Shown piece by piece: positions 6,140 through 47,164 of a stretch of DNA of 60,313 bases. Location: the NCBI GenBank assembly GCA_004292595.1, contig RDXM01000089.1, positions 1-60,313 on the forward strand. The letters are read 5' to 3'. Positions within the stretch are counted from its first letter, which is position 1. Each line of letters opens with the position of its first letter. The notes under the pieces are model-generated. The model ran no database searches. It was given only the letters and a program-made list of their open reading frames with translations, and was not told the DNA's origin. Source of the stretch: Candidatus Kapaibacterium sp. (GTDB lineage Bacteria > Bacteroidota > Ignavibacteria > Kapaibacteriales > UBA4661). Position numbers and translations under genes: made by a program.

Positions 6140-7501
6140 ATGAAAACAAGCATTCGCATCGCATCAGGACAGGGTTTTTGGGGGGATTTGCTCTCCGCAC
6201 CGCTTCAACAAGTTACCAAAGGACAGATTGATTATTTGATGATGGATTATCTCGCGGAAGTAACGATGTCCATTATGCAAAAGCAGAAATTGAAAAATCC
6301 TGCGCTCGGCTACGCGAAAGATTTGGTCGAGGTGTGCGAGGAAATTTTGCCACATTTGGTGAAAAACAACATCAAGCTCATCACCAACGGCGGCGGCGTA
6401 AATCCGCTTGCTGCGCGGGATGCAATCTTTGCTGTGGCGCGAAAATTGGGCATTACGACGCTGAAAATTGGCGTGGTGATGGGCGATAACATTTTGCCAG
6501 ATATTGAACAACTCGTAGCGGACGGGCATGAAATGAAGCAGATGGAAACAGGGCAGCCTATCCGCGAGGTGAAGGACAAACTCCTCAGCGCAAACGTGTA
6601 TTTAGGCGCGTTTCCGATTGTCGAGGCTCTGAAACAAGGCGCGGATATTGTGATTACAGGACGCACCACCGACACGGGACTGACGCTCGCGCCAATGATT
6701 CACGAATTTGGTTGGAGTGCTGACGATTGGGATAAACTCTCGGCTGGCACGGTCGCAGGACACATCAACGAGTGCGGCGCACAGGCAACAGGCGGGAATT
6801 TCCTTGGCGATTGGCGCAGTCTGCCCGACATGGCAAACGTTGGTTTCCCGATTATTGAAGCCTTCCCGAATGGCGAATTTATTGTTACCAAGCACGACGG
6901 CACAGGCGGGCGCGTCAGCCGCGAAACTGTAAGCGAGCAGTTGCTCTACGAAATCGGCAACCCCGCAGAGTACATCACGCCTGACGTTGTGGCAGATTTC
7001 ACCAGCATCAAATTGGAAGACATTGGCGAAAATCGTGTGCGCGTCTATGGCATTACGGGCAAGCCTTCCACGCCATTTCTCAAGGTTTCGGCGAGCTATG
7101 CCGATGGCTACATTGCCTTTAGCACACTCACGTATTCCGCACCCGACGCGCTCGAAAAAGCTCAGATGGGCGATAAAATCTTGCGTACACGCCTTTTGGA
7201 TAATTTGAAATTGAACTTTGACGAAATCCGCACAGAGTTTATCGGGATGAATGCCTGTCATGGCGGAATTGCGGCAAATATCACTCCCAACGAAGTAATG
7301 ATGCGGGTTGGAGTGCGCTCACGGGATTTCAAATCGGTGGAACGCTTTGGGAAAGAAATTGCACCGCTCATTTTGACGGGACCGCCCTCCGTTACGGGCT
7401 TTGCGGGTGGTCGTCCGAAGCCGAGCGAGGTTGTTGCATACTTTCCAGCACTTATCAAAAAAGAAGTTATTCGCCCAGAAGTCGTTGTGGAATCCGTGTA
7501 A
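6140..7501 (+). CDS. DUF1446 family protein (AtuA-like N-terminal domain)
   Basis: The 453-residue protein matches the DUF1446 family, which includes AtuA of acyclic terpene utilisation. Seen are the glycine-rich start IRIASGQGFWGD, the stretch TNGGGVNPLAAR, GADIVITGRTTDTGLTLAP, HINECGAQATGGNF, and the late segment FIGMNACHGG. Family function is poorly defined and the reaction is unknown. I chose the ATG at 6140 because it gives the usual MKTSIRIASG start. An in-frame TTG at 6113 would add nine residues that do not look conserved. No terpene or acyl-CoA carboxylase genes lie nearby, so the terpene role should not be assumed. It is flanked on both sides by palindromic repeats. Confidence 0.85.
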   Translation: MKTSIRIASGQGFWGDLLSAPLQQVTKGQIDYLMMDYLAEVTMSIMQKQKLKNPALGYAKDLVEVCEEILPHLVKNNIKLITNGGGVNPLAARDAIFAVARKLGITTLKIGVVMGDNILPDIEQLVADGHEMKQMETGQPIREVKDKLLSANVYLGAFPIVEALKQGADIVITGRTTDTGLTLAPMIHEFGWSADDWDKLSAGTVAGHINECGAQATGGNFLGDWRSLPDMANVGFPIIEAFPNGEFIVTKHDGTGGRVSRETVSEQLLYEIGNPAEYITPDVVADFTSIKLEDIGENRVRVYGITGKPSTPFLKVSASYADGYIAFSTLTYSAPDALEKAQMGDKILRTRLLDNLKLNFDEIRTEFIGMNACHGGIAANITPNEVMMRVGVRSRDFKSVERFGKEIAPLILTGPPSVTGFAGGRPKPSEVVAYFPALIKKEVIRPEVVVESV

Positions 7502-7518
7502 AAGCAAGGAACTACGCC

Positions 7519-7704
7519 GTCCTACCGTTTCTGAACGTAGTCTATGCACACATCTTTTGTCTGCTTGCTGCAAACGTAGGTTGTATGCGGGTGAAATGTA
7601 GTCCACCTTGAAGGTGGACTACATTTGCGGCAACCACAACACAAGTATTGATGCACTTTTCAGACTTGTGTGCATAGACGAGGTTTCTGAACGGTAGAAC
7701 GGCT
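7519..7704. mobile_element. MITE-like 145-bp insertion splitting a palindromic repeat
   Basis: The palindrome seen intact at 10515-10546 is split here. Its left half is at 7519-7537 and its right half at 7683-7704. The shared centre GTTTCTGAACG occurs as a direct repeat on both sides (7527-7537 and 7683-7693). The intervening 7538-7682 segment has 13-bp inverted ends, GTCTATGCACACA at 7540-7552 and its exact complement at 7667-7679. In its middle is a perfect 16-bp-arm palindrome (7594-7626). No coding capacity is visible. The direct repeat looks like an 11-bp target-site duplication. The element must have moved with a transposase encoded elsewhere, if it moves at all. Confidence 0.7.
7594..7626. 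repeat. Perfect palindrome, GTAGTCCACCTT family
   Basis: AAATGTAGTCCACCTT is followed by one base (7610) and its exact complement, giving 16-bp arms. A relative with one mismatch sits between actB and actC at 47132-47164. It lies at the centre of the 145-bp insertion described for this region. Confidence 0.85.
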
Positions 7705-7731
7705 TTCCCGATACTGCTTCTCAATAAAGTC

Positions 7732-10514: not shown

Positions 10515-10546
10515 CCCGTCCTACCGTTTCTGAACGGTAGAACGGG
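10515..10546. repeat. Palindromic element, CCCGTCCTACCGTT family
   Basis: CCCGTCCTACCGTT, a TCTG loop and AACGGTAGAACGGG form a hairpin with 14-bp arms and one mismatch, between murG and lolD. A half copy is at 97-112, and a copy split by an insertion is at 7519-7704. Confidence 0.85.
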
Positions 10547-47131: not shown

Positions 47132-47164
47132 AGGTGTAGTCCACTTTTAAAGTGAACTACACCT
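47132..47164. repeat. Palindrome of the GTAGTCCAC family, actB-actC gap
   Basis: AGGTGTAGTCCACTTT, one base and AAAGTGAACTACACCT form a 16-bp stem with one mismatch, 10 bp after actB. It is related to the perfect palindrome at 7594-7626. Confidence 0.75.

Follow-up and report, generated by a model that had tools for sequence, protein, structure and literature searches.

The DNA between positions 7500 and 7704 of the window (the whole stretch of 60,313 nucleotides that was analysed) holds one palindrome inside another, and it raises the question of whether the inner segment reached its place by transposition and, if so, by what kind of transposon. The order of parts is CCGTCCTACC-GTTTCTGAACG-segment-GTTTCTGAACG-GTAGAACGG: an outer palindrome is interrupted, and the 11-bp GTTTCTGAACG is present twice (7527-7537 and 7683-7693). 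The segment has 13 perfect bp of inverted ends (GTCTATGCACACA; 7540-7552 and 7667-7679) and a perfect central palindrome with 16-bp arms (7594-7609 and 7611-7626; as a whole AAATGTAGTCCACCTT-G-AAGGTGGACTACATTT, 7594-7626). A sequence-only reading had described these ends and both palindromes, and had proposed the insertion of a 145-bp MITE-like segment into a repeat, with duplication of an 11-bp centre and no encoded transposase. Its inverted ends and central palindrome proved perfect, the broken palindrome does have an intact counterpart (10516-10545), and an ORF check found no transposase inside the element. Folded as single-strand DNA, 7510-7710 is far more stable than its shuffles (z = -7.8); shuffled sequence gave no match for either the central or the target palindrome and the segment matches 14 places in the genome, so the feature is not due to chance.

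These 14 places were found by a search of the whole genome, window included (E <= 6.3e-29). Thirteen are additional to the segment itself, 11 of them spanning nearly its whole length; both ends are kept in 11 copies (the window's included), and three copies are partial. The full copies are 146-148 bp long and 85-97% identical in pairs, have the consensus CTAGTCTATGCACACATCTTTT...TTCAGACTTGTGTGCATAGACTAG, and occur in both orientations at different sites; almost every copy lies between genes. The copies are flanked by direct repeats that measure 8-10 bp and differ by site (for example, GTTTCTGAAC, CTTTCCGAAG and CTGTTGCAGG of 10 bp, and CTGTGAGTG and CCGTGAAGG of 9 bp), and the last base of the duplication is G or C in 14 of 15. 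Eleven full and three partial copies with different flanking duplications thus support the proposed transposition, and the element has moved in the past. Further copies were found in related genomes; outside the own genome, those at L059, L070, L144, L155 and L161 lack a duplication.

Alignment of the copies also corrects the boundaries. The base aligned to 7537 is C in all other full copies and most copies are exactly 146 bp long, which makes 7537-7682 the best delimitation of the element (146 bp, + strand), with a duplication of 10 bp, GTTTCTGAAC, at 7527-7536 and 7683-7692; the duplication first described is real, and the eleventh base in GTTTCTGAACG is a chance G/G match. The arms of the interrupted target palindrome are CCGTCCTACC (7517-7526) and GGTAGAACGG (7693-7702). 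The inverted ends of the element measure 16-19 bp (CTAGTCTATGCACACA-AGT/TCT), and GTCTATGCACACA starts 3 bp inside them. Comparison among copies and with the consensus of the IS50 subgroup (PMC2266710 Table 1) places a 19-bp Tn5-like end on the left at 7537-7555 (+ strand; family consensus CTAGTCTATGCACACATCT, first base here G) and its partner on the right at 7664-7682 (- strand, reading CTCGTCTATGCACACAAGT).

The element has the characteristics of a MITE: it is short, lacks a transposase ORF, has inverted ends and a target duplication, and is dispersed in several copies. IS50-subgroup elements have ends of the form CW------Y---CA-A--W- and 8-9-bp repeats (De Palmenaer et al., PMC2266710 Table 1), and CTAGTCTATGCACACAAGT / ...TCT, compared by eye, fits every conserved position of that consensus. 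Duplications of 8, 9 and 10 bp fit the IS4 family (about 10 bp), 10 being one more than the subgroup's 8-9, and the transposase of the subgroup was found only in a congener (L168, with a frameshifted homologue at L132). The segment at 7537-7682 is very probably a non-autonomous derivative of a Tn5-like insertion sequence of the IS4 family with IS50-subgroup-type ends. A Tn5-like DDE transposase encoded elsewhere would bind both 19-bp ends, cut the element out and paste it into a target with joins staggered by 8-10 bp, and repair of the gaps would produce the direct repeats; the enzyme would favour targets that are dyad-symmetric and have G/C at the edges of the duplication, a frequent target in this genome being the loop of a dispersed palindrome, CCGTYCTAYCG..CGRTAGRACGG. 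We infer that such a transposase acted in trans by cut and paste, and its source may have been lost or may lie in an assembly gap. Because the copies differ by 3-15%, the element is presumably now inactive or of low activity.

A transposase gene between the same ends, which the sequence-only reading had suggested looking for, was found in a congener, with qualifications: the 928-bp element at L168 in G004 (ends CTAGTCTATGCCCACA...TGTGGGCGTAGACTAG) carries a 263-aa Tn5-like transposase ORF, its two ends differ from the MITE ends by three mismatches, and the gene is internally deleted. This ORF matches NF033590 at 5.8e-27 (below the full-length cut-off) and PF14706 at 1e-7 (above the cut-off). 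At L132 in G001, an exact end lies next to a frameshifted homologue. A third Tn5-like protein, likewise in G001 but with different ends, matches solved Tn5 transposase structures at 1e-28. The subterminal sequence of the 146-bp MITE recurs at both ends of a G005 MITE (L070; p 0.0005 and 0.002), and its left part recurs in a multi-copy element found at G007 contig ends (p 0.0025), a pattern consistent with descent of the MITE from such an insertion sequence; the similarity of the MITE's 3' end to the contig-end element of G007 and G002 is not significant. Several G007 contigs break inside this multi-copy element (L226, L233), with ends at 82-98 bp and the TIR CTAGTCTTTGCACACA, and its 3' end is like the transposase 3' end of L132; it is likely a recent autonomous insertion sequence. 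No intact autonomous copy with these exact ends was recovered: the G007 contigs break inside it, the gene at L132 carries a frameshift and that at L168 an internal deletion. A search of a plasmid collection for the transposase returned distant relatives only (no more than 46% identical, along part of the query). The own assembly, which is 96.5% complete, yielded no Tn5-type transposase to searches with two Pfam families or by homology, so its copies are probably stranded or cross-mobilised. The Tn5-like transposase encoded on contig C547 of G001 (L167, 1377-3022) was rejected as the source, its ends being unrelated (CTATCCATTACCCATA); its gene lies beside a CCCCCTTTGTCAAG palindrome half, which suggests the same taste in targets.

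All eight genomes of the genus have the element ends, with at most one mismatch; elsewhere in the order the TIR turned up only as two one-mismatch singletons. The 16-bp end pattern has 70 matches in the GTDB collection, many by chance, and families were considered credible when they had paired ends or repeated subterminal sequence. Such families are found in Ignavibacteria/Kapaibacterium MAGs, Chryseolinea serpens (Cytophagales), a Bradyrhizobium, a 'Gammaproteobacteria' MAG, and MAGs labelled Bordetella parapertussis, and they too mostly adjoin or occupy palindromes. One-mismatch matches on C33, C40, C80, C81, C88, C128, C164 and C170 have no partner end and look like chance, and many CTCG-type matches (in Faecalibacterium, Pseudomonas and others), equally without a partner, were taken as chance. 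A 57-bp minimal element at L144 (DAIEGU010000174, 967-1023) consists of little beyond two facing ends around a short palindrome, and sits in a CCCCCGCAAGGGGGG-type palindrome.

The palindrome at the centre of the element is a dispersed repeat module of its own. It occurs at 129 places in the genome with at most two mismatches (a control pattern gave none), and most of the copies inspected outside the 146-bp MITE belong to another MITE, about 100 bp long, whose ends are TATACTRAAAA...TTTTYAGTATA. This second MITE (L080-L094 and L172-L191, on many contigs of the own genome) is far more abundant, has the central palindrome GTAGTCCACCTTNAAGGTGGACTAC in common, and shows an apparent TA target duplication, IS630/mariner-like. 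Standalone copies of the central palindrome occur in G009 and G001, and a diverged one, GTGTAGTCCACTTTTAAAGTGAACTACAC, stands in the window at 47133-47163 with no MITE ends. Since the homologous G005 MITE lacks the module, the central palindrome looks like acquired cargo rather than transposition machinery. Elsewhere, MITEs bearing the same ends have different palindromes, a hint, though no proof, that palindromes were captured repeatedly.

The outer palindrome is likewise dispersed and intergenic, and within the window it lies near the 3' ends of genes: the broken and the intact palindrome both lie about 16-24 bp past a stop codon, the latter (10516-10545) 24 bp after a murG-like ORF and being one of the 16 intact copies of the strict form left in the genome. 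Empty sites were rebuilt by a script that removed the element and one duplication, and about seven of the 11 own sites are members of one loosely conserved palindrome family. Around the centre of the duplication, the two arms are complementary at a mean of 8.9 out of 14 positions, versus 5.5 in flanking controls; in 20,000 random draws of eleven, no mean was as high. DNA fold energies are concordant for most, not all, empty sites, and the sites at L006, L008 and L009 are weakly palindromic around the duplication. At L002 (contig C132 of G000, 1440-1700), the insertion is nested, the 146-bp MITE having entered the central palindrome of a TA-type MITE that is itself degraded. In relatives the intergenic region past the AtuA gene is not syntenic, so that no orthologous empty site could be used for comparison.

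What the transposase recognises in these sites can be read in two ways. It, or a host factor, may read the sequence of a REP-like repeat family (CCGTCCTACC...) rather than dyad symmetry or hairpin shape, and the membership of most own sites in one palindrome family speaks for this possibility, which we nevertheless consider rather doubtful: the same ends are found in unrelated palindromes (the TA-MITE core at L002, CTCTCCCAGAGG at L010, GTCCCGGCGAAGGCCGGGAC of Bradyrhizobium at L165, and others), and in Sinorhizobium fredii NGR234 an insertion sequence with CTAGGGCATATACACA ends, a distant plasmid relative with diverged ends, likewise splits a palindrome, CTCCCCGCGTGCGGGGAG. A broader proposal is that a Tn5-like clade with CTAGTCTATGCACACA ends, present in several phyla, selects its targets by dyad symmetry or hairpin/cruciform shape and not by sequence, and that its MITEs carry a captured host palindrome at their core in each lineage, such that palindromic repeats and transposon spread each other; we put this forward as an unlikely possibility.

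Two further readings would dispense with a Tn5-like transposase altogether. The central palindrome begins GTAG and ends CTAC, and the genome holds a fragment of a Y1 transposase, as might be expected of a REPIN-type element mobilised by a REP-associated tyrosine (Y1) transposase. Y1/HUH transposition, however, leaves no target duplication, and duplications of 8-10 bp are present here; the ends are Tn5-like and not hairpins, the Y1 loci (L095/L096) lack such a palindrome, the G005 element of the same family does without it, and a transposase was found between matching ends, so that this reading is largely refuted and very improbable. That the segment is the loop of a larger hairpin or regulatory RNA, diverged via duplication of the palindrome's centre and involving no transposon, would agree with the strong fold over 7510-7710; the same 146 bp nevertheless recur at 11 sites that differ in their flanks and duplications, almost every copy lies between genes, and an Rfam search gave no match. 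The unlinked copies already refute this possibility, which we consider extremely improbable. Descent from a Tn5-like insertion sequence remains the preferred explanation.

Few bacterial cut-and-paste transposases have been studied as thoroughly as that of Tn5, and a naturally occurring relative that inserts mostly into the loops of palindromes would allow the recognition of target shape to be tested directly. The element also provides a convenient marker for changes that genomes of an uncultured, Kapaibacteria-like genus underwent in the past, and exemplifies the nesting of palindromic repeats. The sequence-only reading had thought the family undescribed; this is partly right, since none of the relevant papers searched has the TIR, but earlier work (PMC2266710, PMC1525189) covers both the parent group (IS4 family, Tn5/IS50-like) and the insertion of IS4-family elements into REP palindromes. 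The element is thus the relic of a transposon whose kind is known but whose preference for palindromic sites is unusual, and the points of note are its palindrome-in-palindrome architecture and broad spread.

Among known systems, Tn5/IS50 is similar in its 19-bp ends, which fit the subgroup consensus, in the Tn5-like transposase between the same ends (three mismatches) in a congener, in duplications of about 9 bp, in G/C at the duplication edges, and in a tendency toward palindromic targets, Tn5 itself preferring palindromic sites whose repeats end in G/C (PMC1525189). It differs in that the MITE and the own assembly lack a transposase gene, duplications are 8-10 bp, and the targets are often true palindromic repeats, a bias stronger than that described for Tn5. 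QMITE2 of Coxiella burnetii (PMC10969869) is also short, non-coding and mainly outside coding sequence, with inverted ends (20-odd bp), 7-9-bp duplications and a strong internal palindrome, which includes a GTAG-type REP; its end sequences are different, and the family described here has a link to a Tn5-like transposase and inserts within palindromes. In its behaviour the MITE resembles ISRm22 of Sinorhizobium meliloti, an IS4-family element whose nine copies all sit on the symmetry axis of REP palindromes (Tobes and Pareja, PMC1525189; PMC2266710). ISRm22, however, is a full insertion sequence of the IS4Sa subgroup, with ends beginning CA------T and a reported duplication of 6 bp, whereas the MITE has ends beginning CT and duplications of 8-10 bp; the likeness is therefore one of behaviour, not of membership.
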